From: Pseudomonadota bacterium
GTDB lineage: Bacteria; Pseudomonadota; Gammaproteobacteria; Acidiferrobacterales; UBA6901
Assembly: GCA_021785515.1 (NCBI GenBank)
Contig: JAJYEX010000003.1
Span: 248,001 to 312,000 of the forward strand
DNA: 64,000 nucleotides
Direction: 5' to 3'
Notes under the pieces: model-generated
Databases searched by the model: none
Seen by the model: the letters and a program-made list of their open reading frames with translations, nothing else
Told to the model about the DNA's origin: nothing
In this document: piece by piece, positions 23,287-48,297 of the stretch
Numbering within the stretch: position 1 is the stretch's first letter
Layout: each line of letters starts with the position of its first letter
Made by a program: the position numbers and the translations under genes

Positions 23287-24306
23287 TCAGCAAATGCGCG
23301 GCAGCGGGTCGTCCTCGAGTTCTTCAAGGTAGCGCTCACCACCTAGCGCCGTCTGCATACTGACCGCGGAACCAGGACCGGTGATCCGGCCGATGGCCAT
23401 CGCCTCCTTGCCCTGCGGCAGCTTTCGCCAGGCGGCGAGTGCCGCCTCCGCGTCGGCCTCGGCGAGCACGGCTACCACGCGGCCTTCACAGGCAAGATAC
23501 AAGGGGTCATAGCCCAGCATTTCACACACTGAGCGTACCGCGTCGCGCACCGGTATCTGCTGTTCGTGCAGGCGCACCCCGAGACCGGTGGCGCGGCTGA
23601 TTTCGTGCGCAACCGTAGCGAGTCCGCCGCGCGTCGGGTCGCGCATGAAACGCAGGCCCGGCAGCGGCAGCAACGCCTGCGTGAGCGGCAGCACGCTGGC
23701 CGCGTCGGAATGAAGGTCGCTGCGCAGGCCAAACTCCTCACGCGCAAGCATCACAGCGATGCCATGGTCTCCGACCGGTCCGCTCACTAATACGGTGTCA
23801 CCGTCGCGAATGTGCGGCATGCCGAGGGACAGGCCGGGCGGGCGCAGCCCTATGCCGGTCATGGCGATGTACAGTCCGCCACCTTCGCCGCGACGCACGA
23901 CCTTGGTGTCGCCGGTAACTACCTGCACGCCGGACGCGGCCGCGGCACGGGCGAGACTCGCCACGATTCGCTCGAGTTGGGCGATTTCCAGGCCCTCTTC
24001 TATGATGGTGCCGAGACTCAGGTACAGGGGCAGGGCACCGGAGACCGCGAGGTCGTTGACCGTGCCATGTACCGCCAGCGAACCGATGTCGCCACCGGGA
24101 AACTCGAGCGGCTGGACCGTAAACCCGTCCGTGGTGACCATCAGTTCGCCGGCATCTAGCGGTACGGCTGCGGCGTCGGTGCGGACGTCGAGTAGCGGAC
24201 CGGACAGCTGCCGGACAAAAAGCTGCTCGATCAGCTCGCGCATGAAGCGGCCGCCGTTTCCGTGTGCCAGGGATATACGGGTATCGGCAGGTTTGTCGGG
24301 TTTCAT
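23287..24306 (-). CDS. hypE: Hydrogenase maturation protein HypE
   Basis: Makes the cyanide ligands of the [NiFe] active site by dehydrating its C-terminal thiocarboxamide. The 339-residue product has the PurM-like fold (HGNGGRFMRELI at the start, TGDTKVV near 147) and ends exactly in PRIC, the invariant carbamoyl-accepting Cys. It lies 36 bases after the hypF stop. It is the last gene of the maturation run on this strand. Confidence 0.96.
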   Translation of the reverse strand: MKPDKPADTRISLAHGNGGRFMRELIEQLFVRQLSGPLLDVRTDAAAVPLDAGELMVTTDGFTVQPLEFPGGDIGSLAVHGTVNDLAVSGALPLYLSLGTIIEEGLEIAQLERIVASLARAAAASGVQVVTGDTKVVRRGEGGGLYIAMTGIGLRPPGLSLGMPHIRDGDTVLVSGPVGDHGIAVMLAREEFGLRSDLHSDAASVLPLTQALLPLPGLRFMRDPTRGGLATVAHEISRATGLGVRLHEQQIPVRDAVRSVCEMLGYDPLYLACEGRVVAVLAEADAEAALAAWRKLPQGKEAMAIGRITGPGSAVSMQTALGGERYLEELEDDPLPRIC

Positions 24307-24342: not shown

Positions 24343-26640
24343 CTAGCGGTTTTCCAGTTGGGCCTGCCGCTCCACGATCTGGCCGAAACTGATGCCGGCA
24401 TCGTTGCAGGGCAGCTCACACGGAAGGTATACCGTAAAGCCGTCATCCCGCAACAAGGTTGCCGCCTGCTCGCTCAGCACCCGGTTCTGGAACACGCCGC
24501 CGGTAAGCCCGACGGCATCGAACCGGTGCGTGCGCTGCACGGCGCGGGCCTGTTGCAGTATGGCCTGCGCCAAGCTTGCATGAAAGCCGGCGGCGCGCTC
24601 TCCGACGGGTAGGGCTGCATCAGCCAGGAAGGGCACGAGCGGCGCCCAGTCGCATTCCCACATCCCGTCAGACGAGCGCTGCAGGGACAGCGCCGGCCCG
24701 GTGGCCGGCATGGTGCATGCCGCCTCCAGATACATGGGGCCCTGGCCCTCGAAACTCGCGCGATGCAGCAGTCCTGTGAGTGAGGCGGCGGCATCGAACA
24801 GCCTTCCGGCAGCCGTCGAGCGCGGGCTGTTGAGACGCCGCTGCCACGCAGCGTGCAGGAGCTCCGTGTCTTCGGGACAGGAATCCCAGCCGTATCCGCT
24901 CTCCCAGCACAGCGCCGCCGCACTGCGCCACGGTTGCCGAACGGCGTGCTCCCCGCCCGGAAGATGGAATGGCCGCAGGTGCCCCACCCGCCGCCAGCCT
25001 CCAGGACGGCCGAGCAGCGCCTCGCCGCCCCACAGTGTTCCGTCCTCGCCGTAGCCCGCACCGTCCCAGGTGAACACCAGCCAGCTGTCCACCTGCGGGC
25101 ATTCACCGGCGAGGGCCGAAGCATGGGCATGGTGATGAAAGACTTCTGCCAGCGGCAGGCCGCAACGCCTGGCCCAGCGCGTGCTGCCATAGCGTGGATG
25201 GGCGTCACAGATCACCGCGGCCGCCTGTACACCATACAGTTTCTGCAGATCACCAGCCACCTGTGCAAAGACCTCGAGGCTACGCACCGAATCCAGGTCG
25301 CCGATATGCGGTGAGACCACCACGCGATCGTCCCAGGCGATGGCCACCGTGTTCTTCGAGTGGCCGCCCACAGCCAGCAGCGGCTGTGCGAGGCGCAGCG
25401 GCAGATGGCGTTCGACCGGCGCAACTCCGCGCCCGAGGCGCAGCGGCCGCGGGCGACGCGCGATGACGCGGTACACAGCGTCATCGGCCGGCCGTTCGAT
25501 GGGGCGGTTGTGATGCAGGCTTGCGTCAGCCACTGTTCCCAGACGCTCTTCGACGCTGTTGCGTTCCGTCAGGACCGGCTCGCCGCTCACGTTGGCCGAG
25601 GTCGCCACCACGGGGGTGCCAAGATCGGCAAGCAGAAGGTGGTGTAGCGGACTGTAGGGCAGCATCACGCCGATTTCCGCAAGCCCCGGGGCAATCTCCG
25701 CACACAGGGGGTTGTCGCCCGGTTTTCTGGGACACAGCACAATCGGGCGGGCCGGTGACCGCAGCCAGGCTGCCGATTCCTCATCGAGTACCACGGCTTC
25801 GCGCACCGCATCGAGCCCGTCCCGGCCGCGCAGCGGAAACATCACGGCGAGCGGCTTGTGCGGACGCGGTTTGCATCGGCGCAGGCGTCCGACCGCCGCG
25901 GCGTCCAGCCCATTGCACATCAGGTGATAACCCCCCACACCCTTGACCGCGATGATCTGCCCGGCGCGCAGCGCAGCGACGGCGGCGGTGAGCGCTGCCT
26001 CGGCGCGCGCGGCCGCGACACCGGGGCGGCAAAATTCCGCGATGGGGCCGCAGACCGGACAGGCCACAGGCTCGGCGTGGAACCGGCGGTTGCCGGGATT
26101 CAGATACTCGCGCCGGCAGTCATCACAGAGCGTGAAATCCGCCATGGTTGTATTGGTCCGGTCGTACGGAAGCCGGCGGATGAGGGTATAGCGCGGACCG
26201 CACTGGGTGCAGTTGATGAACGGGTACCGGTAGCGCCGGTCCGCCGGATCCTGAAGTTCCCGCAGACAGTCGTCGCAGGCGAAGTAATCGGGCGGAAGGT
26301 GGACAGATGCGCCGGCGGCTTCGCTGCTTTCCAGGATGACGAAGGTGTCCAGAGGACGGTGGGTTGTATTTTTTTCCGAAATCAGCCGGGGTTGCGCCAG
26401 AGGGGGCGCCTCAGCCAGCAGTGCTGTGGCGAATGCATCCAGGCTGGCCGGCGTGCCCTGCGCCAGGATCTCGAGCTGACCGCCACGGTTCCGCACCCAG
26501 CCGCGCAGCGCATGCCGGTGCGCGATACGGTACACGAACGGGCGAAACCCCACGGCTTGGACCCGGCCGCCGAGGATCCAGAGCCGGGTTGCGGTCTGCA
26601 CCTGCTGCGTGTTGGACCCTTCCTGCGGCTCGTTCTGCAT
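24343..26640 (-). CDS. hypF: Carbamoyltransferase HypF
   Basis: Activates carbamoyl phosphate and transfers the carbamoyl group to HypE for cyanide synthesis. The 765-residue product has the complete domain order: acylphosphatase (GGRVQAVGFRPFVYR, about 24-38), two C4 zinc fingers (about 115-200), YrdC-like domain (about 210-390) and Kae1-like domain with HHHAHAS and DGAGYGEDG. I chose ATG 26640, ten bases after GGAG; a GTG at 26667 would add nine residues. A putative transporter gene separates it from hypB. Confidence 0.95.
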   Translation of the reverse strand: MQNEPQEGSNTQQVQTATRLWILGGRVQAVGFRPFVYRIAHRHALRGWVRNRGGQLEILAQGTPASLDAFATALLAEAPPLAQPRLISEKNTTHRPLDTFVILESSEAAGASVHLPPDYFACDDCLRELQDPADRRYRYPFINCTQCGPRYTLIRRLPYDRTNTTMADFTLCDDCRREYLNPGNRRFHAEPVACPVCGPIAEFCRPGVAAARAEAALTAAVAALRAGQIIAVKGVGGYHLMCNGLDAAAVGRLRRCKPRPHKPLAVMFPLRGRDGLDAVREAVVLDEESAAWLRSPARPIVLCPRKPGDNPLCAEIAPGLAEIGVMLPYSPLHHLLLADLGTPVVATSANVSGEPVLTERNSVEERLGTVADASLHHNRPIERPADDAVYRVIARRPRPLRLGRGVAPVERHLPLRLAQPLLAVGGHSKNTVAIAWDDRVVVSPHIGDLDSVRSLEVFAQVAGDLQKLYGVQAAAVICDAHPRYGSTRWARRCGLPLAEVFHHHAHASALAGECPQVDSWLVFTWDGAGYGEDGTLWGGEALLGRPGGWRRVGHLRPFHLPGGEHAVRQPWRSAAALCWESGYGWDSCPEDTELLHAAWQRRLNSPRSTAAGRLFDAAASLTGLLHRASFEGQGPMYLEAACTMPATGPALSLQRSSDGMWECDWAPLVPFLADAALPVGERAAGFHASLAQAILQQARAVQRTHRFDAVGLTGGVFQNRVLSEQAATLLRDDGFTVYLPCELPCNDAGISFGQIVERQAQLENR

Positions 26641-26780
26641 GTCATCGATGCTCCGCGGTCCCGGCACAATCAGGTCGGCACTCTTGTGCTGCCGGAAACC
26701 CGGACAGTTTGTGCCGACGGTATGCCCGGCGGACGGTGCATGCCAGCCGGCCGGCGATTACGGGCACCTCGGGCAGTTCT

Positions 26781-27707
26781 TTACTCCTGACCCATGGCCG
26801 GGCTTGTGCGCCGGTGCCGGCGGATCGCTTCGAGTGAAATGAACGTCAGCGCCGACCCGATCAGCAGCATGCCGAGCATTTCCGGTGTATCGGGAGCCTC
26901 GCCCAGCTGCAGGGCTGCGGCCAGCACACCTACTGCCGGGCTTGCCAGGGTACCGAGGCTTGCGACTCCAGCGGGAAGGGTATCGAGCGCATAGAGCCAC
27001 AGGAACCAGGCGAGCGCATTTGCCGGGAGCGCATTGTAGGCCAGCGCCCCGACAAACACCCAGTTCCAGTGCAACGGCGCGTGCGGCAGGACCAGTGCGA
27101 TGATTGTCAGGCCGACGGCTCCAAACAGCATCTGCCATGCCGTGAGCGCCAGCAGGTCGAGATGTACGTGCCGGCGCAGAATCTTGGCATACAAGGTGCC
27201 TGCCGCCCAGAAGATGCCGGCGGCCACGGCGATAAGGTCGCTGCCGAGTCCGCCCGTGGCGTGCCACGGTGCGATCACCAGCACCAGACCTGACAGACCG
27301 AGGACCACTGCAATCCGCTGCATGCCCGTCATGACTTCCCCGAGCGTGGTCCGGGCGAGGACGATGACCCAGAATGGCATCGTATAGACCAGCACCGCCA
27401 TCTTGCCGGCGGCCCCGCGTTCCAGGGCCCACATGGTTAGCCCGACAAAGCCCGTGGTCTGCAACAGTCCGAGCAAGGCGAGTCGGCCGGGAGCTTGCGG
27501 ACGCAGTCGCCGGCGCAGCGCCAGCAGTATGATGAAAAGACAGAGGGTACCCAGGACCGTGCGCAGGGCGGCGAAGTCGAACGGGCTTGCCGAGCGCAAT
27601 GCAAGCTTCATCACCACCCAGTTGTATCCCCAGATCAGGGACAGCAGGCAAAGAGCAGCCGCAGCGGCAAGTCGCGGATGCCTGGCAGCAAGACTTGAAA
27701 TGCTCAC
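26781..27707 (-). CDS. DMT superfamily transporter (EamA family)
   Basis: A 308-residue membrane protein with ten predicted helices in two EamA repeats, starting with SLIWGYNWVVMK (about 22-33). Members export amino acids or other metabolites; the substrate is unknown. The GTG start at 27707 has GGAG five bases upstream. It sits inside the hyp run between hypB (185 bases upstream) and hypF (140 bases downstream) and is not a known hydrogenase gene; nickel transport is not a property of this family. Confidence 0.87.
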   Translation of the reverse strand: MSISSLAARHPRLAAAAALCLLSLIWGYNWVVMKLALRSASPFDFAALRTVLGTLCLFIILLALRRRLRPQAPGRLALLGLLQTTGFVGLTMWALERGAAGKMAVLVYTMPFWVIVLARTTLGEVMTGMQRIAVVLGLSGLVLVIAPWHATGGLGSDLIAVAAGIFWAAGTLYAKILRRHVHLDLLALTAWQMLFGAVGLTIIALVLPHAPLHWNWVFVGALAYNALPANALAWFLWLYALDTLPAGVASLGTLASPAVGVLAAALQLGEAPDTPEMLGMLLIGSALTFISLEAIRRHRRTSPAMGQE

Positions 27708-27893: not shown

Positions 27894-28754
27894 TCAGGAC
27901 TTTGCCGGAAGAAAGACGTATCCCGGGTGCGGGGATCGGGTTTCGGGGTGCTGCCGATGGCCGTCGGGTTGTATTGCCGGTCGGGCGGTCGTGCCCTGAA
28001 TCACGCGCCTGCGCTGTGCCGCAAGTTCTTGCCGCAACCACGCAATCCAGTTTTCCAGGCCATCGGACGATCGGGCCGAAAGCCGGATTGTGGGCGCCAC
28101 GCTCGCTAAGTGGCGCAATGCGGCTTCCGCCCGTTGCGGATCAAAATCTCCGAGAACCGCGAGCAGATCGGTCTTGGTAAGCACCATCAGGTCAGCAGCG
28201 CGGAACATCACCGGATACTTGGCCGGCTTGTCATCGCCCTCGGTGACGGAGAGAAGCGTCACGTTACGGTGGTGGCCCAGATCGAAGCTTGCCGGACACA
28301 CCAGGTTTCCGACATTTTCGATGAAGACAATGTCGAGGCCCGAAAGGGGCAGCTGGTGCAGGGCCTCGTGAACCATATGCGCATCGAGATGACAAGCGCT
28401 GCCCGTGGTGATCTGTATCGCCGGCACGCCTCTGGCGCGCACGCGCTGGGCGTCGTTTTCCGTTTCCAGGTCGCCTTCAATCACCGCGATCTGCAGTTCC
28501 CCGCGCAGCGCGTCGATGGTGGCCTCGAGCAGGGCGGTTTTGCCGGCACCCGGCGAGGACATGAGATTGACAGCAAGGACACTGTGGCGGTCGAAGTGCG
28601 CGCGGTTATGGCCGGCCTGGACATCATTCTCGTCGAGCAGGCTCTTGAGCACCGTCACTGCGGCTTTGCCGTCGGCAGTCCGGGACAGCCGCCCGCCGTC
28701 GCTGACCAGATGTTTGTTGCCAGAGGTGATGTTGCATCCGCAGCTGTCACACAT
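27894..28754 (-). CDS. hypB: Hydrogenase nickel incorporation GTPase HypB
   Basis: GTPase that delivers nickel to the hydrogenase large subunit with HypA. The 286-residue product starts MCDSCGCN, the N-terminal high-affinity nickel motif CxxCGC, has the P-loop SSPGAGKTAL (about 65-74), the metal site ACHLDAHMVH and LTKTDLL guanine specificity. A tail of about 40 residues rich in Pro, His and Arg extends past the usual end. It follows hypA by 43 bases. Confidence 0.95.
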   Translation of the reverse strand: MCDSCGCNITSGNKHLVSDGGRLSRTADGKAAVTVLKSLLDENDVQAGHNRAHFDRHSVLAVNLMSSPGAGKTALLEATIDALRGELQIAVIEGDLETENDAQRVRARGVPAIQITTGSACHLDAHMVHEALHQLPLSGLDIVFIENVGNLVCPASFDLGHHRNVTLLSVTEGDDKPAKYPVMFRAADLMVLTKTDLLAVLGDFDPQRAEAALRHLASVAPTIRLSARSSDGLENWIAWLRQELAAQRRRVIQGTTARPAIQPDGHRQHPETRSPHPGYVFLPAKS

Positions 28755-28797
28755 AACTTGCCTCCGGAACGTCAGTATTTGCAGAAAAAAGCCGCGA

Positions 28798-29184
28798 TCA
28801 GGGGGTGGCCGCCTGCTTAAGCGACGCAGACGGTGGATCGTCTGCATCCAGCTCCACGCTTGCCAGCAGCATTTCATCTCCGCTGACCAGACGAGTATGC
28901 CAATCCCCGCAGCGGGCGCAGACCAGATGGTTCACATCGGCCTCAGACTCGCAGCCGCAGCTTTGGCAGCGCACCCGCACGGGGGGCCGGTCGATGAGCA
29001 GCAGCGCGCTGCCCGCCACCGTGCCTGCCCGGGCGAGCAAATAGGCCCGCCGCAGGAGATCCGGATCGACGCCCGACAGCGGTCCGACGCTAACGCGGAT
29101 CGAGCGTACCGCGCGCGCCCGGTGCTGCAGCGCTACCGCTTCAACCTGGGCGATCAAGGATTGGCACACAGACAGTTCATGCAT
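28798..29184 (-). CDS. hypA: Hydrogenase nickel chaperone HypA
   Basis: Nickel and zinc protein that passes nickel to the large subunit. The 128-residue product starts MHELSV, with the nickel-binding His2, and has a zinc site of two CxxC pairs (CQSCGC and CARCG, about residues 73-97). The ATG at 29184 overlaps the hypC stop by eight bases. The tail DDPPSASLKQAATP is somewhat longer than in many homologues. Confidence 0.95.
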   Translation of the reverse strand: MHELSVCQSLIAQVEAVALQHRARAVRSIRVSVGPLSGVDPDLLRRAYLLARAGTVAGSALLLIDRPPVRVRCQSCGCESEADVNHLVCARCGDWHTRLVSGDEMLLASVELDADDPPSASLKQAATP

Positions 29185-29404
29185 CGGTGGCAAACATTTC
29201 GTCGTAGAGCGCCCAGGCGGCGCGTGCCTCCTCGGCGCCCAGCTTTTGCACGACGCGCCCAAGCTGAATCATCACGAAGTCACCCGGCACGACCTCGCCT
29301 TCCGGCAGCAACATCAGACTGGCTTTGCGTTCGACGCCCCGCGCGGCGCAGCGCGCCACGTAGCCGTCGATTTCAAGAACCTGCATCGGTATGCCTAGAC
29401 ACAT
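29177..29404 (-). CDS. hypC: Hydrogenase assembly chaperone HypC
   Basis: A 75-residue chaperone that, with HypD, assembles the Fe(CN)2CO unit and carries it to the large-subunit precursor. It starts MCLGIPMQV, with the essential Cys2, and has the typical GDFVMIQLG core (about 43-51). It is the first gene of the minus-strand maturation run and divergent from the hydrogenase protease gene, with an FNR-type box between them. Its expected partner hypD is not in this window. Confidence 0.96.
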   Translation of the reverse strand: MCLGIPMQVLEIDGYVARCAARGVERKASLMLLPEGEVVPGDFVMIQLGRVVQKLGAEEARAAWALYDEMFATDA

Positions 29405-29474
29405 ATTTTTCTGCAGCGCACCTGTGATCGTATGTATGCCGCATGTCAGATGGTACCGGTCTGTCTTCCGGAAA

Positions 29475-29518
29475 TTTTGATTTGCATCAAAAGATTGCTG
29501 AGGATGCGGGAATAGTAT
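29475..29518. promoter_or_regulatory. FNR/Anr-type operator and promoter between hypC and the hydrogenase operon
   Basis: TTGAT-TTGC-ATCAA at 29477-29490 matches the FNR consensus TTGAT-N4-ATCAA at every defined base, and the symmetry extends to 18 bases (29475-29492). Toward the plus strand a -10 element TAGTAT (29513-29518) puts the predicted start near 29525, so the box centre lies at -41.5, the class II activator position. On the minus strand TACGAT (29432-29427) would place the box near -63, close to a class I position. The box is seen directly; anaerobic activation of both operons is inferred. Confidence 0.8.
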
Positions 29519-29561: not shown

Positions 29562-30077
29562 ATGATGAGCCAACTGTTCGAAGCCAGACAAATCTCGCCG
29601 CGTGCGGCCGGAACGAAGACGCTGGTGCTCGGCATCGGAAACACCCTGCTTGGTGACGAGGGCGCCGGTGTGCATGCCGTGCGTCAGTTGCGCCAGCTTT
29701 ATGGCAGCCGTAGCGACATCGAATTCCTGGACGGCGGCACGCTCAGTTTTACGCTCGCCGGCCCGATAGAGCAGGCCGACAATCTCATCGTCGTGGATGC
29801 CGCCGAGCTGTATGCGCCGGCGGGAACGCTGCGGGTGTTTCTCAACGAAGAAATGGACCGCTTTCTTGGCGCCAGTCGCCGGTCCAGCGTGCACGAAGTG
29901 AGCCTGCTTGACCTGCTGTCCGTAGCGCTGCTCTCGGGGCGGTTGCCGCGGCAGCGGGCGCTCGTTGGAATCCAGCCCATGATTGTGGACTGGGCGGATG
30001 GTCCGAGCGAGGTGGTCGCACGTGCCATTCCCCAGGTCTGCAGAGAGGTGATCAGTCTTGCAGGGGCATGGCTATGA
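29562..30077 (+). CDS. Hydrogenase maturation protease, HyaD/HupD type
   Basis: Endopeptidase that removes the C-terminal tail of the large subunit once nickel is in place. The 171-residue product keeps the nickel-sensing ligands: Glu in GDEGAGVH, Asp in FLDGGT and His in SVHEVS. I chose ATG 29562 (or the adjacent ATG 29565); a GTG at 29529 is possible but lies only four bases from the predicted transcript start. It probably serves the adjacent Isp-type hydrogenase, whose precursor has a 15-residue tail. The stop overlaps the next start. Confidence 0.9.
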   Translation: MMSQLFEARQISPRAAGTKTLVLGIGNTLLGDEGAGVHAVRQLRQLYGSRSDIEFLDGGTLSFTLAGPIEQADNLIVVDAAELYAPAGTLRVFLNEEMDRFLGASRRSSVHEVSLLDLLSVALLSGRLPRQRALVGIQPMIVDWADGPSEVVARAIPQVCREVISLAGAWL

Positions 30078-30508
30078 GCGAAGTCGGAATTTTTCCAATC
30101 AAGCGGCTGGATGTCCCGCAGGCCGGCAATCGCGGTCAGTTGCTGGCGGTGGTCAACGAGATCGAATCCATGCTGGCCAGGCTTGCGCACGACGGCAGTA
30201 GCGGATCGATCGATCTGCGAGGCCTGCCGATCTCGCCGGATGACCGCGATCATCTGCGGCGAATCTTCGCGGAAGGAGAGGTGCGTGCTGTCATTCATGC
30301 ACTGGGCAGGACCGAGGTGTACGAGTCGATAGTGCGGGGTGTGTGGTGGGTCACCCATCATGATGATGACGGCAGAATCGCGGCCGAATTCGTGGAGGTC
30401 ACGTACATGCCGGAGATACTCAAGACGCCGCCGGATGACATAGCAGACGGACTGGAGACGCTGCGCACGCAGCTGCCGACGCTTGCCGAAGACTGCCACA
30501 GGGCTTAG
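30068..30508 (+). CDS. HupH/HyaF-domain hydrogenase expression protein (single domain)
   Basis: A 146-residue protein matching the C-terminal HupH/HyaF domain: GEVRAVIHALG, then GVWWVTH (about residues 93-99), then AAEFVEVTYMPEIL. Such proteins assist maturation of the iron-sulfur small subunit in uptake hydrogenases; the mechanism is unclear. Full-length HupH/HyaF is about 280 residues, so this is roughly half size and contains only one copy of the domain. It overlaps the protease gene by ten bases and precedes the small subunit by 20. Confidence 0.8.
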   Translation: MAMSEVGIFPIKRLDVPQAGNRGQLLAVVNEIESMLARLAHDGSSGSIDLRGLPISPDDRDHLRRIFAEGEVRAVIHALGRTEVYESIVRGVWWVTHHDDDGRIAAEFVEVTYMPEILKTPPDDIADGLETLRTQLPTLAEDCHRA

Positions 30509-30528
30509 GGACCACAAGGGGGTGTCCG

Positions 30529-31593
30529 ATGTCGCACGATGAGTCGATCGGGGAGTCACTCAGGAAGCAGGGAATATCCCGCAGAGCCTTCATGAAATTC
30601 TGCGCGGCGACGGCGTCGCTGCTGGCGCTGCCTCCCGGCATGGCCAAAGTCATGGCAGAGACGCTTGAGCGCGCCCGGCGCCCCTCGGTCATCTACCTGT
30701 CCTACCAGGAGTGCACCGGGTGCGGCGAGTCGCTGACCCGTTCGTTTTCGCCCACCCTGGAAAATCTTATTTTCAACATGATGTCGCTCGATTATTACGA
30801 GACCCTGCAGGCGGCCGCCGGAACTGCGGCGGAGGCGGCACGCAAGACGGCAATGAAGGAAAACTGGGGCAAGTACCTGCTTGTAGTCGACGGCGCGATT
30901 CCGCTTGGTATCGATGGCGCCTACTGCACCATTGCAGGAGAAAGTGCAGCGGACATACTGACCGAAGCCGCCAAGGGTGCAGCCGCAGTCGTTTCAGTGG
31001 GCACCTGCGCGGCCTTTGGGGGCATTCCGCACGCCAATCCCAATCCGACCGGCGCGGTCGCGGTCAGCGCGGTGGTGAAGGACAAACCGGTGGTCAATGT
31101 CTCGGGCTGCCCTCCGGTACCGGAGGTCATTACCGGCGTACTGGCACATTATTTGACCTTTGGCAGCCTTCCGGAGCTTGACCACCTCGGCCGACCGACC
31201 GTGTTCTTCGGCAATACCATCCATGACCGCTGCTATCGCCGGCCTTATTACGATGAGGGCAAGTTTGCCAAGACCTTTGACGATGAGGGCGCACGCAACG
31301 GCTGGTGCCTGTATGAGCTCGGGTGCAAGGGGCCTGTTACCTACAATGCCTGTCCAACGGTGAAATGGAATCAGGGCACAAGTTACCCAATCGAGTCGGG
31401 CCACGGCTGTCTCGGATGTTCGGAACCCGATTTCTGGGACAAGGGCAGCTTTTACTCGGCCTTGTCGACGCGCAACTGGAGCGGCGGGACGGTCCTCGGG
31501 GCGGCGGCCGCAGCCGGCGTGGCCATAGGCGTGGGCGCAGCCGTTGTCTCGCGCCGTCGCCGGGCGCAGCGCGAAAAGGAAAAGCAGTCATGA
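30529..31593 (+). CDS. hynS: [NiFe]-hydrogenase small subunit, group 1 Isp-type
   Basis: Electron-transfer subunit with three Fe-S clusters, exported by Tat. The 354-residue product has the twin-arginine motif SRRAFMKF (17-24), the proximal-cluster CTGC (Cys62, Cys65), GTCAAFGG, SGCPPVPE and distal and medial ligands such as CLGC. A C-terminal hydrophobic helix followed by RRRRAQ anchors it in the membrane. The proximal motif is CTGC, not the CTCC of oxygen-tolerant group 1d enzymes. Gene order small-isp1-isp2-large identifies the group 1e type of purple sulfur bacteria. The stop overlaps isp1 as ATGA. Confidence 0.93.
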   Translation: MSHDESIGESLRKQGISRRAFMKFCAATASLLALPPGMAKVMAETLERARRPSVIYLSYQECTGCGESLTRSFSPTLENLIFNMMSLDYYETLQAAAGTAAEAARKTAMKENWGKYLLVVDGAIPLGIDGAYCTIAGESAADILTEAAKGAAAVVSVGTCAAFGGIPHANPNPTGAVAVSAVVKDKPVVNVSGCPPVPEVITGVLAHYLTFGSLPELDHLGRPTVFFGNTIHDRCYRRPYYDEGKFAKTFDDEGARNGWCLYELGCKGPVTYNACPTVKWNQGTSYPIESGHGCLGCSEPDFWDKGSFYSALSTRNWSGGTVLGAAAAAGVAIGVGAAVVSRRRRAQREKEKQS

Positions 31594-32243
31594 CCCTGCT
31601 CGATTTCGCCCGCGGGGCGGCCATGAAGTGGTCGATCGCCGTGTTTCTGTTCGGCGTGCTGTGGCGCCTCGTCGGCGTGCTGTTGCTGCGGCGCGCGCAC
31701 GACTATTCGCAGTCACGGGGCCCCAGTCTTGTGGCCGGAGCGCTGCAGACCATCATCACCCGGTCCTGGCCGCGCAAGGAATTCCGGGCAAGCACCGCCT
31801 ACGGCGTGGCAATCAGTTACGTTTTTCACATCGGACTGGCAATTGTTGTATTCGGTTTTGTGCCGCACATACTGCTTATCCGCAGTCTCATCGGGATCGG
31901 CTGGGACGGCCTGCCCAGCGGAGTGATTTACTTCTGCTCGGTAGTGACGCTGATCGCGCTGGTGATGGCCATCATCCGGCGCCTGACCCATCCGGTGCTG
32001 CGGCTGCTGTCCAATTTCGACGACTACTTCAGCTGGCTGGTGACGGCCGCCCCGGTGCTCTCCGGGCTGCTGGTCGTGGCACATTTCGGGGCACGCTACG
32101 AGACGCTGCTCGCGGTACACATTCTGAGCGTAGAAGTGCTGCTGATTTGGTTCCCGTTCGGCAAGCTCATGCATTCACTGCTGCTGCCGCTGGCGCGCGG
32201 CCAGACCGGCGCGTTCTATGCCCGCCGGGGGGCCAGTACATGA
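31590..32243 (+). CDS. isp1: Isp1, cytochrome b-like hydrogenase membrane subunit
   Basis: A 217-residue integral membrane protein with about five helices, similar to the NarI/DsrM-type cytochrome b family. Histidines in YVFHIGLAIV, HPVLRLL, VAHFGARY and AVHILSV are candidate haem ligands. It should pass electrons between the quinone pool and Isp2 or the small subunit. ATGA overlaps on both sides couple it to the small subunit and isp2. Confidence 0.88.
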   Translation: MTLLDFARGAAMKWSIAVFLFGVLWRLVGVLLLRRAHDYSQSRGPSLVAGALQTIITRSWPRKEFRASTAYGVAISYVFHIGLAIVVFGFVPHILLIRSLIGIGWDGLPSGVIYFCSVVTLIALVMAIIRRLTHPVLRLLSNFDDYFSWLVTAAPVLSGLLVVAHFGARYETLLAVHILSVEVLLIWFPFGKLMHSLLLPLARGQTGAFYARRGAST

Positions 32244-33595
32244 TCGCCGACATCGATACCCTGCACCCTTTGGAAACCGAAGGGGCCCGTCTGGGCATCA
32301 AAAATCCCGCGCAGCGCTATGACCGGCAGGGCGAGCGCAACGACCAGGACCGGATGGAGGCCGCTATGCGTGCATTTGCGCACGATTTCGGTGCCACCAC
32401 GGCGGTCTACCTGGAATCCTGCATCCACTGCGGCATGTGCGCCGAGGCCTGCCAGTATTATGTCCAGACGGACGATCCGCGCTATACGCCGGTGCGCAAG
32501 CTCGAACCGTTCAAGCAGGCATACAAGCGCGAGGCCGGTCCGTTCGCGTTTTTCTACCGGCTGTTCAATCTCAAGCACCGGGTGACGGTCGACGAACTGC
32601 AGGAGTGGCAGGAACTCATCTATGACTCGTGCACGATGTGCGGCCGCTGCTCACTCATCTGCCCTATGGGCATCGATATTGCGCGGCTTGTGGGGCAAGC
32701 CAGGCACGGGATGTTCCAGGCGGGTCTGGTGCCGCACGAACTGTGGGCGGTAGCCGAGCGCGCCGAACGCGAGGGCAGCCCTCTGGGCGCGACCCCCAAG
32801 GTGTTTAAGGAGCGGATTGACTGGTTGTCCGACGAGTATGACGTGCAGATCCAGGTGGATCTGGACAGCGCTGATATTTTGGTGAGCATGTCGTCGATCG
32901 AGATCATGAAGTATCCCCAGGCGATTGTCGCCACCGCCAAGGTGCTGAACGCCCTCGGCGAGAAGTGGACGATCCGCCTCGACGGCTATGAGGCGACGAA
33001 TTTCGGCATGCTCTCCGGCAACGCCCAGTGGCAGAAGGATCTCAGCATGAAAATCATCAACGCCGCCGTCAAGTGTGGCGCGAAGATGTTGATTCTTCCT
33101 GAGTGCGGACACGCTTACGGCGCCATGCGCTGGGACGGTGCCAATATTTACGGCAAACCGCTGCCGTTCGAGGTGCTGCACGTCTCGGAGTTTCTGGCGA
33201 GGAACCTGCGCAATGGCCGGCTCAAGGTCAAGCAGGTGCCGAAGTCGGTGACGTTTCACGATCCCTGCCAGATTGCACGGCGCGGCGGAGCGACCCAGGC
33301 GCCGCGGGAGGTGCTCGCGAAGCTTGGTGTGGATCTGCACGAGATGTCTCCAGGCGGGGATCTGAACTGGTGCTGCGGCGGCGGCGGCGGGGTAGTGACC
33401 ATACACCGGGCGGACGAGCTGCGCTACAAGGTCTTTCAGATAAAGATGAAACAGGTGGACGAGTCCGGTGCTGAGATGCTGCTGATGAGCTGCTCGAATT
33501 GCCGCCAGACCTTCGACGACGGTCAGGCCCATTTCAAGTGGGACAAGACGGCGCACAGCCTGCTGGAGCTGGTCGCGGATAATCTGGCGCGGTAG
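32240..33595 (+). CDS. isp2: Isp2, HdrD-like iron-sulfur subunit
   Basis: A 451-residue cytosolic iron-sulfur protein resembling heterodisulfide reductase subunit D and DsrK. Two [4Fe-4S] sites are visible: Cys61/64/67/71 and Cys131/134/137/141. The C-terminal half has CCG-type motifs, including NWCCGGGGG (about residue 376) and SCSNC (about 417-421). It forms the cytosolic partner of Isp1 in the Isp-type hydrogenase and may link quinone redox to a cytosolic thiol or electron carrier. It starts as ATGA overlapping isp1. Confidence 0.9.
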   Translation: MIADIDTLHPLETEGARLGIKNPAQRYDRQGERNDQDRMEAAMRAFAHDFGATTAVYLESCIHCGMCAEACQYYVQTDDPRYTPVRKLEPFKQAYKREAGPFAFFYRLFNLKHRVTVDELQEWQELIYDSCTMCGRCSLICPMGIDIARLVGQARHGMFQAGLVPHELWAVAERAEREGSPLGATPKVFKERIDWLSDEYDVQIQVDLDSADILVSMSSIEIMKYPQAIVATAKVLNALGEKWTIRLDGYEATNFGMLSGNAQWQKDLSMKIINAAVKCGAKMLILPECGHAYGAMRWDGANIYGKPLPFEVLHVSEFLARNLRNGRLKVKQVPKSVTFHDPCQIARRGGATQAPREVLAKLGVDLHEMSPGGDLNWCCGGGGGVVTIHRADELRYKVFQIKMKQVDESGAEMLLMSCSNCRQTFDDGQAHFKWDKTAHSLLELVADNLAR

Positions 33596-33668
33596 CCGGT
33601 GGCGCGCCTGGGGAAAGGGTGTGGCCGCGGGCGGTCCGCGATGTGTGTCCGTCATTGGGAGAAAGACG

Positions 33669-35450
33669 ATGCCAAGCCAATTAGTCGTGGTTGATCCGGT
33701 TACCCGGATAGAAGGGCATTTGCGAATCGAGGCCAAGACCGATGCCGCCGGCACGATCACCGGTGCTTCGAGCGCCGGAACCATGGTTCGCGGCATCGAG
33801 ATCATCCTGCGCGGGCGTGATCCGCGCGATGCCTGGGCATTTGCCCAGCGCATCTGCGGAGTATGCACCCTGGTGCACGGCATCGCGTCGGTGCGCACCG
33901 TGGAGAACGCGCTCAATTACGATATCCCCCCGAACGCGCAGCTTATTCGCAACCTGATGATCGCCGCGCAGTTCGTGCACGACCACGTGATGCACTTCTA
34001 TCATCTGCACGCGCTTGACTGGGTCGACGTGGTATCGGCGCTCAAGGCTGATCCGGGAAAAACCTCGGCCCTGGCGCAGTCGATCAGCAGCTACTCGAAA
34101 TCCTCTCCCGGCTACTTTGCCGATCAAAGGAAGAAGCTCAAGAACTTTGTCGAGTCCGGTCAGCTTGGCCTGTTCGCCAACGGCTACTGGGGTCATCCGG
34201 CCTACAAGTTGCCGCCGGAGGCGAATCTTCTGGCGGTGAGTCACTACCTGGAAGCACTTGCGTGGCAGCGGGAGGTGGCCAAGCTGCACGCCGTCTTCGG
34301 CGGCAAGAATCCACACCCGAATTTTGTGGTGGGCGGCGCGCCCTGTGCCATCAGCGTGCACCCGGGGCGCAAGGAGGCCGGGGTCGATGAATTCAACACC
34401 GGTGCGGGCGTCGGTGCCGGAGCGACCGCCGTCAACATACTGGGGCTTGAGCTGGTGCAGCACGTCATACGCCAGATGCGTTCGTTCGTAGATGAAGTAT
34501 ATCTTCCGGACACGCTTGCCATCGCCGGGTTTTACAAGGACTGGTTCACGCGGGGCGAGGGAGTGGGGAACTTCATGACTTTCGGTGAGTTTCCGCAGAA
34601 GGGCATGAACGATCCGGGCAGTCTGCTGATTCCACCGGCAGCCATTCTCGGCCGTGATCTGAACAAGCTGCATCCCGTCGACTTGACCGATCCGGCGCAG
34701 GTCCAGGAATTCGTGGCCCACTCCTGGTATGACTACAGCGTGGGCAAGAACAAGGGTCTGCACCCGTACAAAGGCCAGACGGTGCTGCACTACAGCGGAC
34801 CCAAGCCACCCTACGAGCACTTGGACACCGAACAGAGCTACTCGTGGCTAAAATCGCCGCGCTGGCGCGGAAATCCCATGGAGGTCGGTCCGCTGGCCCG
34901 GGTGCTGGTGCTGTATGCCAGCGGCCATGAGCCCACCCGGGAGCTGGCCGGATATGCGCTCAAGAAGCTGGACCTGCCATTGCCGGCGCTGTTTTCCACT
35001 CTCGGCCGGACGGCTGCGCGGACGCTGGAGGCGAAGATCATCGCCGACGCAATGCAGGGCTGGTACGACAGTCTCATGGCCAACATCAAGAATGGAGATG
35101 TGCGCACCTTCAATGACCGGCTTTGGGATCCTTCGGCCTGGCCGGAAACGGCGCGGGGTGTGGGGTTCACCGAGGCTCCACGCGGGGCGCTCGCCCACTG
35201 GATCGTGATCAAGGATACGAAGATCGACAACTACCAGGCGGTCGTGCCCACCACCTGGAATGCCGGGCCGCGTGATGCGGCCGGCAAGGAAGGTCCATAC
35301 GAGGCATCGCTCCCGGGGACGAACCTTTACGACCCCAAACAGCCTCTCGAAATACTGCGCACAATACACAGTTTTGACCCGTGCATCGCCTGTGCGGTGC
35401 ATGTGGCTGATCCGGCCGGCAATGAGCTTGTCGAGGTGAAAGTGAGCTAG
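33669..35450 (+). CDS. hynL: [NiFe]-hydrogenase large subunit, group 1 Isp-type
   Basis: Catalytic subunit that holds the NiFe(CN)2CO centre. The 593-residue precursor has the N-terminal ligand pair RICGVC (Cys63, Cys66) and the C-terminal pair DPCIACAVH (Cys572, Cys575). Cleavage after His578 would remove 15 residues. The ATG at 33669 has GGAGAAAG just upstream; the frame is open further back without family sequence. It ends 71 bases before the first ATPase gene with no terminator between. Confidence 0.96.
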   Translation: MPSQLVVVDPVTRIEGHLRIEAKTDAAGTITGASSAGTMVRGIEIILRGRDPRDAWAFAQRICGVCTLVHGIASVRTVENALNYDIPPNAQLIRNLMIAAQFVHDHVMHFYHLHALDWVDVVSALKADPGKTSALAQSISSYSKSSPGYFADQRKKLKNFVESGQLGLFANGYWGHPAYKLPPEANLLAVSHYLEALAWQREVAKLHAVFGGKNPHPNFVVGGAPCAISVHPGRKEAGVDEFNTGAGVGAGATAVNILGLELVQHVIRQMRSFVDEVYLPDTLAIAGFYKDWFTRGEGVGNFMTFGEFPQKGMNDPGSLLIPPAAILGRDLNKLHPVDLTDPAQVQEFVAHSWYDYSVGKNKGLHPYKGQTVLHYSGPKPPYEHLDTEQSYSWLKSPRWRGNPMEVGPLARVLVLYASGHEPTRELAGYALKKLDLPLPALFSTLGRTAARTLEAKIIADAMQGWYDSLMANIKNGDVRTFNDRLWDPSAWPETARGVGFTEAPRGALAHWIVIKDTKIDNYQAVVPTTWNAGPRDAAGKEGPYEASLPGTNLYDPKQPLEILRTIHSFDPCIACAVHVADPAGNELVEVKVS

Positions 35451-35521
35451 TTGCGGTGCGCGAGGGTGCGTGGGCGTGCCCGGTCAGGGTGCTCGCGCCG
35501 GGACAGGCTTGGAGCGCAACG

Positions 35522-35842
35522 ATGGACGATGAACTGAAACGGCTGCTCGATGCGGAAGCGCGTGCCGAGGCCATGGTTGACGCGACCCAGCGCGAGTGTG
35601 AGCGGCTGATCGAGCAGACGCGGGAAGAGGTGCAGGCCGCCGAGCGGCGTGCCGAAGAGCATATGCCGGAGTTGCGCAAGGCGTTTGTCGACAGGGCCGA
35701 TGAACGCGCCGGTCTGACGCTGGCAGAGATGGAGCGTCACTACCGGGAGCGTGGAGAACGGCTGCAGGCCATGGCCAGCGCGCGGGCGCAGGAAGCCGTG
35801 GATGCGACGCTGGCGCTGATCGTTGACCCTGACTGGGAGTGA
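35522..35842 (+). CDS. V/A-type ATPase peripheral stalk subunit G/H
   Basis: A 106-residue, highly charged helical protein, almost wholly coiled coil with many Ala, Glu and Arg. It matches the small stalk subunit (NtpF/AtpH) that pairs with subunit E, and it is the first gene of the ATPase cluster. Sequence similarity in such coiled coils is weak, so the assignment rests on size, composition and position. Confidence 0.75.
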   Translation: MDDELKRLLDAEARAEAMVDATQRECERLIEQTREEVQAAERRAEEHMPELRKAFVDRADERAGLTLAEMERHYRERGERLQAMASARAQEAVDATLALIVDPDWE

Positions 35843-35845
35843 TCC

Positions 35846-36892
35846 ATGCGGGCCATTGCGCGCTACGCATATCTCAATACCCGGGTGTCGGAAATGGCGT
35901 CGCGCCTGCTGGCGGACCAGGAGATTGACAGCCTCATCGAAGGTCACAGCGATTCGCAGCGCGCGATCCTGCAGGCCGGGGCGCTTGTCGGCCGCAAGCC
36001 GGACGCCGCGGCCGATGCCGGTCTTTCCTTGGAACAGCGGCTGATCGCGAATCTTCTGGCGGATTTCGCAATTCTGGTGCGCGCACTGGACGGGGCTGCG
36101 CGGAGTTTTTTCGTGTACTGGGGCTGCCGCTTCGAGCTGAGCAACCTCAAGACCATACTGCGCGGCAAGATGGTGAACGAGCCTGCTGCGCAGATTCGGG
36201 CGCAGCTGGTGGACATGGGCCCCTATGGCCGCCTGCCGGTTGACGACCTGCTCGGTACGCAGGATGTCGCCGAACTGCTGCGCCGCCTGGAACGCACTCC
36301 CTTCGCCGCGGTGGCCCGCGAGGCGCGCCGCATCTACGAGGAGCGGCAGGCGCTGTTTGCGGTGGATGCGGCGGTGGACCGGCGCTATTACGCAGAACTG
36401 CAAGAGCATGTGCAGTCTCTTGATGGCTCAGACCAGCGTGAGCTTGGACCGCTGGTTGCGGACATGGTCGACCGGACCAATCTGCTGTGGCTGCTGCGCT
36501 ACCGCTTTTCCTATGGACTGCCTCCGGCCCAGACCTATTACCTCCTGGTTCCCGCCGGGTCGCAGCTGCGGCCGCTGCTACTGCAACAGCTGTCGAGGCT
36601 GGAGTCTGTGGCTGAGGTCATTGCGCGCCTGCCGCGTGTGTTTGCCGCGCCGCTTGCCGGAGTGGTTACCGTGACCGATGCAACCCTGGTGCTTGAGCGC
36701 GGCGGGTGGCGCAGGGCGGAGAAAATCCTGAAAAGCCGCGCCGTCGGTCTGGCGCGGATCCTGGCTTATCTGGTTCTGAGGGAAAAGCTGCTGCGGCAGC
36801 TGCGTGCGGTGAGCAAAGGCCGGCGTCTGGGATTTGCCTCAGACCTCATACGTCAGGCAACCGGCATCGCGGCTGCGTTTGTTGCGCGGTGA
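35846..36892 (+). CDS. V/A-type ATPase subunit C (V0D/AC39 family)
   Basis: A 348-residue soluble helical protein of the V-ATPase subunit C/AC39 family, which caps the membrane ring and couples it to the central stalk. It starts MRAIARYAYLNTRV, typical of the family, and has the repeat-like segments LKTILRGK (about 101) and NLLWLLRYRF (about 213). The position after subunit G/H fits bacterial and archaeal ATPase operons. Confidence 0.88.
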   Translation: MRAIARYAYLNTRVSEMASRLLADQEIDSLIEGHSDSQRAILQAGALVGRKPDAAADAGLSLEQRLIANLLADFAILVRALDGAARSFFVYWGCRFELSNLKTILRGKMVNEPAAQIRAQLVDMGPYGRLPVDDLLGTQDVAELLRRLERTPFAAVAREARRIYEERQALFAVDAAVDRRYYAELQEHVQSLDGSDQRELGPLVADMVDRTNLLWLLRYRFSYGLPPAQTYYLLVPAGSQLRPLLLQQLSRLESVAEVIARLPRVFAAPLAGVVTVTDATLVLERGGWRRAEKILKSRAVGLARILAYLVLREKLLRQLRAVSKGRRLGFASDLIRQATGIAAAFVAR

Positions 36893-36931
36893 CGTCGAAT
36901 CCGTCATCTGCGTCCGAGGAACGCTGCCGCC

Positions 36932-38830
36932 TTGTTCAGACCCGTGCCCATGCAATGGATCACGCTGCTGGTGCTGAAAGACGATACACCCGACGCCGCC
37001 GTCGTTGTGGCGCGGTGCGGTATTCTCGATCCTGATGCGGCCGAGTGGCCGAATCTGCTTCCGGACCTGCCGGGGAAACGGTTCGCAGAGCTCTACGGGG
37101 TGGCGCGGGGATATCTGGATAAGATTCTCGCCCACTGTCCGCGGTCGGACGACCGCCCGCGGCTTGCCGGAGAAATGCCGGATGAGGCCCAACTCGAGGC
37201 GCTGGGAGCGTGGCTGCGGACGTTGTGGCTGCAGTGCTCGAACTGCCAGGAAAGCTCGCGCCGGGCGGAGGAGGAGCGCAGCTATGTGGCGCAGCTTGTG
37301 AAGATGCTCGACCGGTTTGCGGTGCTCGGAATCGACCTCGGTTTGCTGACGCGCAGCCGCCAGTTTCTCGATGTGCACATTGGCATGATGCCGTCGGCCC
37401 ATGTCGCCCGTGTCCGCGAGGCGGTCGCACTCGCCGGCTACGTGCTGACGCCGCTCACCGAGGAGCGGGGGGTGGTGCAGGCGGTGGTAGCCGGACCGAA
37501 GGGGCGCGAGGCGGAGGTCGGGGCGGCGCTGCGGGCGGCGGACTGGGAGGCGGCGCGTCTGCCGGCCTCGCTGGAAGACGGCCCGCAGGCGGTCAGGAGG
37601 CGGTTGCTCGAACACCAGGACCGGGTGGTTGCCGAGGCCAATACACGCTGCCGGCAGGTAGAGATGATGCGGCAGGAATTCGGCGACCGGCTGGTGCAGG
37701 CGGCAGACCTGCTGGCCATGGCCGCCCCGTACGCGGAGCTCGGGGAGGTAGCGCGCGGCCGTGGTGGGCTGACGCAAATCGGCGGCTGGGCGCCGGCGTC
37801 GGAACTTGCGGGTTTGCGCTCGGCGCTGCGTGATCGCTTTGGATCCCGTTTCGTGCTGAACGCAAGGGTGCCGCGACCGGATGAAACCGGACGCGTTCCT
37901 TCTCTGCTGCGCCATTCCGCACTGCTTCGTCCGTTTGCCGCGCTGGTAAGCAACTACGGCGTCCCGCGCTATGGGGAAATCGATCCGACGCTGCTGTTTG
38001 CGGCGAGCTTCGTGATCATGTTCGGAATGATGTTCGGCGACATCGGCAATGGCGTGCTCATCGCCGTGGTCGGGGCGCTGGCGGCGCGCCGGCTGCACGG
38101 TCTTGCCCCGTTCGTAATCGCTTGCGGCCTGGCGTCCGCCGGATTCGGCTGGGCATATGGCAGCGTCTTCGGATTCGAGGAGCTGGTTCATCCCCTGTGG
38201 ATTGCGCCGCTCGCGGACCCCGAGCGCATGCTGGTCGTTGCGCTCTATTGGGGCATCGGCTTCATATTGGTCGCCGGCGTGCTCAGCATGGGCAACTGCA
38301 TCATAGGTCGCCGGTACCGTGACGCCTTGCTGGACGGAAAGGGTCTCGCCGGGCTGGTGCTCTACGCTGCCGTGCTGCTCGGTCTGCGCCACCAGATTCT
38401 GGGCACGGGTCCGGGCGGTGTGGCGTGGGTCACGGCTGCGGCCGCCCTGACGCTGGTGTTCGGATATCACTGGTACCAGTACTCCGGGAAGTCGGCAGAG
38501 GGCGTCCTGGTAGCATTTGCCCAGTCAATTGAGGACGTCATTGGATATTTTTCGAACACCCTTTCCTTCCTGCGCGTGGCGGCGTTCGAGCTGAATCATG
38601 TGGTGCTCGCGGCAGCGGTCCTCGCGCTTGCATCCATGGCACAAGGGCGTGCCGGAAACTGGATTGCAGTGGTGTTGGGCAATATTTTCATTATGGTGCT
38701 GGAAGGAGCAATCGTCGCAATCCAGGTTCTGCGTCTTGAGTATTACGAGGGCCTCTCACGCTATTTCGGAGGCAGCGGGCGTGAGTTCCGGCCGCTGACG
38801 CTGGATAGAGGCGGCGTACCGGCATCATGA
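36932..38830 (+). CDS. V/A-type ATPase membrane subunit I
   Basis: A 632-residue subunit with a soluble N-terminal half (coiled-coil stalk arms) and a C-terminal half of about eight membrane helices from about residue 345. The conserved Arg that works with the rotor carboxylate lies in SFLRVAAFELNH near residue 550. This is the stator for ion translocation. The TTG at 36932 follows GAGGA by 11 bases; GTG 36944 and ATG 36950 are alternative starts a few residues later. Confidence 0.9.
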   Translation: MFRPVPMQWITLLVLKDDTPDAAVVVARCGILDPDAAEWPNLLPDLPGKRFAELYGVARGYLDKILAHCPRSDDRPRLAGEMPDEAQLEALGAWLRTLWLQCSNCQESSRRAEEERSYVAQLVKMLDRFAVLGIDLGLLTRSRQFLDVHIGMMPSAHVARVREAVALAGYVLTPLTEERGVVQAVVAGPKGREAEVGAALRAADWEAARLPASLEDGPQAVRRRLLEHQDRVVAEANTRCRQVEMMRQEFGDRLVQAADLLAMAAPYAELGEVARGRGGLTQIGGWAPASELAGLRSALRDRFGSRFVLNARVPRPDETGRVPSLLRHSALLRPFAALVSNYGVPRYGEIDPTLLFAASFVIMFGMMFGDIGNGVLIAVVGALAARRLHGLAPFVIACGLASAGFGWAYGSVFGFEELVHPLWIAPLADPERMLVVALYWGIGFILVAGVLSMGNCIIGRRYRDALLDGKGLAGLVLYAAVLLGLRHQILGTGPGGVAWVTAAAALTLVFGYHWYQYSGKSAEGVLVAFAQSIEDVIGYFSNTLSFLRVAAFELNHVVLAAAVLALASMAQGRAGNWIAVVLGNIFIMVLEGAIVAIQVLRLEYYEGLSRYFGGSGREFRPLTLDRGGVPAS

Positions 38831-38859
38831 ATTTCTGTTCATAGCTAGAGGAGCGTGTC

Positions 38860-39318
38860 ATGTACTGGCTGGTCGGTCTGATCACCTTGAGTCTTTTGGG
38901 CACGGTGGGTTTTGGTCTGTTTCTCGATATGCGGCCCGCACGGGCAAATCCGGATCTGCCGCGGTGGCTGCGGCGGACGATCGGAACCAACCTGGTGGTA
39001 TTCGTCGCGGCGGAGGCGGGGCTGCTGCTGGCCAGCGTCCACCAGGCCATGGCCGCGTCGCCGCCGGCCGTGACGGCCGGCGCATCGACGACGATCGGGG
39101 TCGGTTACGGTCTGGCGTTGATCGGCGCCGGTCTGCCGACGGTGGCGGCCACGATTGCCGCAGCCCTTGCAGTTGCGCCCGTGGGGTCGGCTGCACTGGC
39201 AGTCATCGCCGAGAAGCCGGAGGCGTTCGGCCGCAGTCTGGTGTATCTCGGACTGGCCGAGGGTATCGCGATTTACGGCCTGGTGGTCACCATCCTCATG
39301 CTTGGCAAGTTCGGCTGA
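38860..39318 (+). CDS. V/A-type ATPase proteolipid subunit K (c ring)
   Basis: A 152-residue rotor subunit with four hydrophobic helices in two hairpins. The fourth helix carries the ion-binding Glu134 in LGLAEGIAIYG. The second helix carries another buried acid, Glu52, in VAAEAGLLLA. Many duplicated V-type proteolipids keep only one carboxylate. There is no Gln or Thr pattern typical of sodium rings beside Glu134, so proton coupling is favoured. It starts 29 bases after subunit I. Confidence 0.88.
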   Translation: MYWLVGLITLSLLGTVGFGLFLDMRPARANPDLPRWLRRTIGTNLVVFVAAEAGLLLASVHQAMAASPPAVTAGASTTIGVGYGLALIGAGLPTVAATIAAALAVAPVGSAALAVIAEKPEAFGRSLVYLGLAEGIAIYGLVVTILMLGKFG

Positions 39319-39329
39319 GGAGGACGGTA

Positions 39330-39680
39330 ATGAACACGAAAGATGTCAAAACCATGCGTACGCGGGTTATTGCTCTTGGCAGTGCCGCCCTGATGGACGG
39401 ATTTGCCACGATCGGCATCGAAACCATTCGTGATGCCAGCCCCGGGTCCCTGGACAATCTGTTAGCGCGGCTGAGCGCGGACGATCAGCGGGCCGTGGTG
39501 TTTATCGAAAGCGATCTTGCCCGCAGCGCCAGTCCCTGGCTGCAGCGCCTGCGGGCAAGAGGTGGACGCGTGATCATTGTGGAGATTCCGGCGCTGAATG
39601 CGCCGGATGACTACCAGCCGGTGATCGAGACCATGGTGCGCGGCATGCCTGAGGTGCACAAAGGCCCGTATCCGCGATGA
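39330..39680 (+). CDS. V/A-type ATPase subunit F
   Basis: A 116-residue Rossmann-like subunit of the central stalk. It has the typical alternating strands and helices (RVIALGSAALMDGFATIGIE, then AVVFIESD, then IIVEIPAL). It lies 11 bases after subunit K and overlaps the start of subunit E by four bases. Confidence 0.8.
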   Translation: MNTKDVKTMRTRVIALGSAALMDGFATIGIETIRDASPGSLDNLLARLSADDQRAVVFIESDLARSASPWLQRLRARGGRVIIVEIPALNAPDDYQPVIETMVRGMPEVHKGPYPR

Positions 39681-40324
39681 ACGTGTCCTCCCAGGCTGTG
39701 GATCTGGAATCCGCCCTGATTGAGCGTGCCAAGGCGCAGTCGGAGAAGTGCCTGTCCGATGCCCGCCGCACACGCGACGAACTTCTTGCCGCCGCCAATG
39801 AACGGCTGCGGTTGCGCGAGGAGCGCGAGACGCACGTCATCAGGGCGTTTTCCGAACGCCGCTACAGGCAGCGTGTTCAGGCCGGCGAGATCAAATTGCG
39901 CCGGGAACTGGAATGGCAGCGCTGGCGCCTGATCGACGATACGATCGCCCGCCTGTCTGCGCGGCTGGCGGCGCTGGTCCAGAACGAAGGCGCGTATCTT
40001 CCGCTGCTGACGGGGTTTCTGGCGAAGGCGGCGGCCGAAATCGGCGACGGCGAGCTCGTCGCCGATTTGAATGAGCAGGATCACCGACGTCTGGTCCCGA
40101 AATGGGAGGCATTTTGCCGCGACGCCGGGGTCGGCGGCCGGGTCCGGCTTGCTCCGCAGCCGCTGTCCAGCAGCGGTGGAGTCCGGGTGCGAGATCTCGC
40201 CAATACCGTAAGCGTCGATTTCACGATCGAGGCGCGGTTGGCGCGCATGCAGGAGCCGCTGCGGCTGGTGATTGCGGCCCGGTTGTTTCCGGAATCGGAA
40301 CTTGCCAGAGAGGGTGCAGGGTGA
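39677..40324 (+). CDS. V/A-type ATPase peripheral stalk subunit E
   Basis: A 215-residue protein with a charged N-terminal coiled coil (about 10-90) and a globular C-terminal domain that includes LSSSGGVRVRD (about 166-176), the usual subunit E turn. It binds subunit G/H to form the outer stalk. Its stop overlaps the GTG of subunit A. Confidence 0.87.
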   Translation: MNVSSQAVDLESALIERAKAQSEKCLSDARRTRDELLAAANERLRLREERETHVIRAFSERRYRQRVQAGEIKLRRELEWQRWRLIDDTIARLSARLAALVQNEGAYLPLLTGFLAKAAAEIGDGELVADLNEQDHRRLVPKWEAFCRDAGVGGRVRLAPQPLSSSGGVRVRDLANTVSVDFTIEARLARMQEPLRLVIAARLFPESELAREGAG

Positions 40325-48255: not shown

Positions 48256-48297
48256 CCGGATCCCGGGCGGCGACGCTGTTGCGCTGCGGATCCGGCC

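Follow-up and report, generated by a model that had tools for sequence, protein, structure and literature searches.

Gene organisation around the predicted divergent promoter

The window, by which we mean the whole 64,000-nucleotide stretch analysed here, carries two divergent gene runs that face away from each other between hypC and hupD. The minus-strand run holds hyp genes, and the plus-strand run opens with a maturation protease gene. The genes are as follows.

23287–24306, minus strand: hypE (AIRS domains PF00586/PF02769; named from position and domains)
24343–26667, minus strand: hypF (Pfam HypF domains)
26781–27707, minus strand: EamA-family transporter within the hyp gene run (PF00892; conserved in the genus)
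27894–28877, minus strand: hypB (TIGR00073)
29177–29404, minus strand: hypC (TIGR00074, above cut-off; 75 aa from the ATG at 29404, MCLGIPMQV)
29562–30077, plus strand: hupD/hynD-type hydrogenase maturation protease, first gene of the plus operon (TIGR00072, above cut-off)
30068–30508, plus strand: hupH, C-terminal domain (PF04809)
30529–31593, plus strand: hynS, [NiFe] hydrogenase small subunit (TIGR00391, above cut-off)
31544–33595, plus strand: Isp1–Isp2 fusion (DsrK/HmcF-like from residue ~257 onward; N-terminal part taken as Isp1 by position, with no domain match)
33621–35450, plus strand: hynL, [NiFe] hydrogenase large subunit
35456–44125, plus strand: orf129 and A/V-type ATPase subunits C, I, K, F, E, A, B and D, co-directional with small gaps
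44199–48819, plus strand: group 3b/sulfhydrogenase-like beta, gamma, delta and alpha subunits and a second maturation protease

The start codon of hypC was corrected to 29404 (MCLGIP...), further upstream than in the first ORF call. The plus-strand genes are co-directional from 29562 to 48819, and the largest estimated gap, of ~73 bp, precedes 44199. No extra promoter was found ahead of the ATPase genes, and a terminator scan returned terminator-like sites at no more than the shuffled expectation. Co-direction, small gaps and the lack of a detected extra promoter make it plausible that the ATPase is co-transcribed with the hydrogenase genes. The product of orf129 (35456–35842) has 128 residues and no family match.

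Isp1 and Isp2 seem to form a single fused ORF in the window genome, and in other genera of the class every full-length match is interrupted by at least one internal stop. Among the loci compared, the EamA transporter between hypB and hypF occurs in this genus only.

An FNR-type box between two −10 elements

Three elements lie in the hypC–hupD intergenic region.

29450–29455, minus strand: −10 element TACCAT of the hyp operon (gap of 21 from the box; predicted start ~29443)
29477–29490, no strand assigned: FNR box TTGAT-TTGC-ATCAA (kept in 13 species)
29513–29518, plus strand: −10 element TAGTAT of the hydrogenase operon (gap of 22 from the box; predicted start ~29525)

Direct reading of TTGATTTGCATCAA (29477–29490, centre 29483.5) gives an FNR-type box with 0 mismatches to TTGAT-N4-ATCAA, the consensus of class II FNR-activated promoters, and thus bears out the exact match claimed in a preliminary description of this DNA. 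That description also reported symmetry over 18 bases. The symmetry does run outward over 29475–29492 (TTTTGAT/ATCAAAA), but it breaks at the centre of the spacer, where two base pairs do not match.

On the hydrogenase side, the distance of −41.5 put forward earlier fits the position of TAGTAT if transcription starts at 29525, a +1 that was assumed to lie 7 nt after the hexamer, the observed quantity being the 22-bp gap. On the hyp side, the predicted start at ~29443 places the box centre at −40.5. Both gaps are conserved and compatible with these distances, and both starts are predictions, ~82 bp apart, with predicted leaders of ~39 nt (hyp) and ~37 nt (hup). A single site is therefore flanked on either side by a −10 element at activating distance, the layout that characterises single-site divergent activation.

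Neither −10 hexamer matches TATAAT at more than four of its six positions. The −35 slots read AAAGAT and AAAATT, and no good −35 hexamer is present on either side, in keeping with E. coli class II FNR-dependent promoters, which have a weak −35. A sigma-70 promoter scan found none here and gave no excess over shuffled sequence. Comparable spacing is common in E. coli: of 23 FNR-activated promoters whose start is known, 19 have their site within −41.5 ± 4, with −40.5 and −42.5 among the positions (PMC3688515).

A pattern search of the 3.05-Mb genome found 11 exact boxes against ~0.4 (0.37) expected from composition, and the reversed motif, used as a control on the same genome, gave 0 exact matches. 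In the 64-kb window alone, with up to one mismatch allowed, two boxes were found against 0.73 expected, which is not significant. The second of these, a one-mismatch box at 35199, was discounted as regulatory: its position within hynL, shared by the hynL of several relatives, suggests coding sequence.

Conservation of the arrangement within the order

Thirteen species of the order keep the box between hyp and hupD: five from the genus (all members compared) and eight from other families. Within the genus (L018–L021, of which L041–L044 are the same promoters), the intergenic DNA is largely unalignable save for the hypC start and the block that runs from the box to the −10 element. A HynS search of the order yielded 14 further loci, with HynS 65–71% identical. 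Eight of them (families f4 and f7) have, ahead of hupD, a box with no more than one mismatch, and hyp genes lie divergently upstream in every such locus where the sequence reaches that far. The six loci of family f2 have no box upstream of hupD; where their sequence is longer (L104, L105, L115), the hyp genes sit beyond hynL and are co-directional with it.

When the 13 promoters are aligned on the box, TANNAT occurs at a gap of 21–22 bp in 8/13 on the hup side and 10/13 on the hyp side, and the looser TANNNT in 10/13 and 11/13, respectively. Elsewhere these −10 patterns occur at about 0.4–0.8% (roughly 1%) per position. Outside the genus, TANNNT is found at this gap on the hup side in five of eight promoters (nominal P 7e-7) and on the hyp side in six of eight (nominal P 3e-9), binomial values that count related species as independent, the closest pair having 0.73 identity on the minus side. 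Mean identity of the flanks outside the box and −10 elements is 0.26–0.27, equal to random. The symmetry is not universal: hyp-side TANNNT is absent in the f4 species G026 and G027, and hup-side TANNNT is absent in G051, G053 and G049.

These comparisons bear on the hyp start near 29420 that had been suggested earlier. Such a start would use TACGAT, which is indeed present at 29432–29427, and would place FNR at about −63.5 in a class I-like position. TANNAT at the corresponding gap of 44 is found in one of the 13 species, namely this one, against the ten that have it at 21–22, and we rejected this start, a very unlikely one in our view. TACCAT at 29455–29450 is the conserved hyp-side −10 element; the hyp start is therefore predicted at ~29443.

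A chance match without a regulatory role would have in its favour the degenerate −10 hexamers and nothing else. Both the conservation across families and the genome-wide enrichment speak against it, and we give it almost no credence. The decisive support beyond chance is that box and −10 elements are kept in 12 other species, as judged from their aligned promoters. The box is accordingly real at the level of sequence comparison, since the arrangement is conserved across a bacterial order, and its general kind is already known. The earlier proposal that one box serves both the hyp and the hydrogenase genes gains comparative support from the retention of the box with −10 elements on its two sides.

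Candidate regulators and other boxes in the genome

The genome encodes six Crp/Fnr-family proteins. Two of them (L011 and L012) score as Fnr above the NCBIfam NF008365 cut-off, and most of each sequence can be aligned with a solved FNR regulator (5cvr/5e44). Both have all four cluster cysteines, three of them N-terminal and a later one in a C-E-(I/L)-P context, together with the recognition helix E-T-V-S-R, of the form E-x-x-S-R. A third protein, L013, is FixK-like; it is a possible alternative binder of the box, because it carries the ETVSR recognition helix even though it lacks the N-terminal cluster cysteines and falls below the Fnr cut-off.

Given this repertoire, the box could be used by a different Crp/Fnr regulator, L013 or another, that responds to a signal other than oxygen acting on an Fe–S cluster. 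The motif TTGAT-N4-ATCAA is common to FixK and FNR, and L013 combines the matching helix with the missing cysteines. Against this stand the two genuine Fnr proteins above a curated cut-off and the other boxes in the genome, whose positions at ackA, dsr, hyp and other genes fit anaerobic control. We consider a different regulator rather unlikely; it would be compatible with the two-sided layout and would overlap our preferred explanation in all but the identity of the regulator.

Elsewhere in the genome, exact boxes occur close to dsrA, dsrE/dsrB, ackA, a Fur/Irr-like regulator, a rhodanese-like gene and a second hydrogenase-maturation cluster. At several of these boxes a −10-like hexamer follows after a gap of 21–23, such as TAGAAT at 23 on the dsrE side and TATCGT at 21 for ackA. 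The second hyp cluster comprises a hydrogenase-large-subunit-like gene, hypC, hypD and a HypX-like formyltransferase/crotonase fusion, and upstream of it two exact boxes lie 76 bp apart (L039, G000:C18, ~4341–4430). Neither box has TANNNT at the gap towards hyp. The second falls inside a called ORF, so the true start of that ORF may be downstream.

A mirror-symmetric model for FNR-dependent divergent activation

We think it likely that the region is a mirror-symmetric bidirectional promoter at which a single FNR dimer serves both directions as a class II activator. Without oxygen, the dimer would bind 29477–29490. It would then recruit polymerase to TAGTAT (29513–29518) for transcription of hupD-hupH-hynS-isp-hynL and probably onward, or to TACCAT (29455–29450, minus strand) for hypC-hypB and the hyp genes that follow. 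Both directions should depend on the activator, because neither side has a good −35 hexamer. In this way the box probably switches on a hydrogen-using enzyme cluster and its metal-centre assembly genes in the absence of oxygen. FNR binding, use of the starts and the oxygen response are all predicted here from the DNA.

If two polymerases docked on the same dimer facing opposite ways, they would be expected to clash, and each round would then serve one direction; the geometry thus suggests mutual exclusion. More tentatively, we propose a natural promoter, conserved order-wide, in which an FNR dimer centres two class II promoters, gives the hydrogenase and metal-centre assembly genes a shared oxygen switch and, through competing and mutually exclusive polymerase docking, couples the supply of enzyme to that of the maturation machinery. 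We lean slightly against expecting all of these elements to hold together.

Service of both directions is not guaranteed, because an engineered E. coli promoter with a CRP site at −40.5 was activated in one direction and blocked in the other (PMC12825309). By that precedent the box could activate in class II fashion in one direction, with the opposite −10 element independent or repressed by FNR; in E. coli, FNR represses acsP1, a promoter that points away from nrf (PMC5434802). An independent or repressed promoter would need no class II gap, however, and the same gap of 21–22 bp is found on both sides and is kept in species with unrelated flanks. We regard activation of a single direction as quite unlikely.

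The predicted layout resembles that of the E. coli class II FNR promoters narG, dmsA, nirB and yfiD, where one consensus box lies ~41 bp upstream of the start (PMC3688515). Those promoters are activated on one side, whereas here a second −10 element mirrors the first and would serve divergent genes. Another parallel is divergent activation by CRP, in which a Crp/Fnr-family dimer at one site serves two divergent promoters. CRP bound once can activate promoters on both sides of it (El-Robh and Busby 2002, as cited in PMC3105977), and E. coli has eleven intergenic regions where a lone CRP site lies between two genes that are both under CRP (PMC3105977). El-Robh and Busby worked with a model system; here the predicted activator is of the FNR type.

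The bidirectional promoters of Warman and colleagues are also similar, with pseudo-symmetric DNA, divergent RNAs and steric competition (PMC12825309). In those promoters the symmetry is inherent in the −10 elements, whereas here its centre is the activator site and the predicted starts lie well apart. Bidirectional promoters are subject to polymerase competition, and the same recent work states that nothing is known about their control (PMC12825309).

Single-site divergent activation by a Crp/Fnr-family regulator is therefore known, and the arrangement here would be a near-symmetric, conserved FNR-type version of it. To our knowledge, no FNR case with near-equal 21/22-bp gaps kept throughout an order has been described. 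Kovacs et al. 2005 reportedly found FNR control of the Hyn (Isp-type) hydrogenase in Thiocapsa roseopersicina; the control predicted here is of the same kind. Evolution has kept a near-symmetric promoter with the activator at its centre, which lends itself to asking whether a single class II activator can drive transcription both ways and whether the balance between hydrogenase and maturation proteins is set by competition. The promoter would also bring an Isp-type hydrogenase, and possibly an A/V-type ATPase and a second hydrogenase, under the control of oxygen.

Occurrence of the symmetric form beyond the order

Whole genomes were searched for a strict symmetric pattern with a 21-bp gap on both sides, a definition that leaves the window, with its gap of 22 on one side, outside. 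The pattern was found in 7/57 genomes of the order and 6/369 class-level genomes. Six of the seven order matches are upstream of hyp genes: five are the known hyp|hup regions, and the sixth (G038, L116) lies directly upstream of hypC, with hypB further along. The seventh (G050) is at unrelated genes. At the class-level matches, the callable flanking ORFs were not hydrogenase-like, as judged by eye.

The divergent hypC|hupD layout itself is widespread outside the order (L029, L106–L108, L111–L114). In outgroups with this layout, the intergenic regions contained no box with up to one mismatch and the symmetric arrangement was absent, and so the symmetric form seems, at hyp/hydrogenase genes, to be confined to this order. 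In Wenzhouxiangella (L030) boxes are present, with no TANNNT at the gap.

Three outgroup loci (L112 at 7423, L023 at 7822 and L111 at 7147) have TTGAC-N4-GTCAA palindromes upstream of hupD, possibly reflecting related Crp/Fnr control. L112 and L023 have a one-sided, hup-side −10 element at a gap of 22 from the palindrome; a divergent hypC was not found in L023.

Recurrent association of hydrogenase and ATPase genes

In the window, a second hydrogenase and its protease (44199–48819) follow the ATPase, giving one co-directional run with two hydrogenases and an ATPase. An A/V-type ATPase set lies downstream of the Isp-type large subunit in several lineages (the window at 33621–44125, L018–L021, L022, L031, L096, L098 and L102), in most of which a small orf129-type protein precedes it. 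L103, L107 and L108 have a more distant ATPase. This recurrent adjacency suggests a functional link between hydrogenase and ATPase. In L096 (G051) a perfect FNR-type box, TTGATAAATATCAA at 11704–11717, lies between hynL and orf129/ATPase, and the ATPase of this genome may have FNR-type control of its own.
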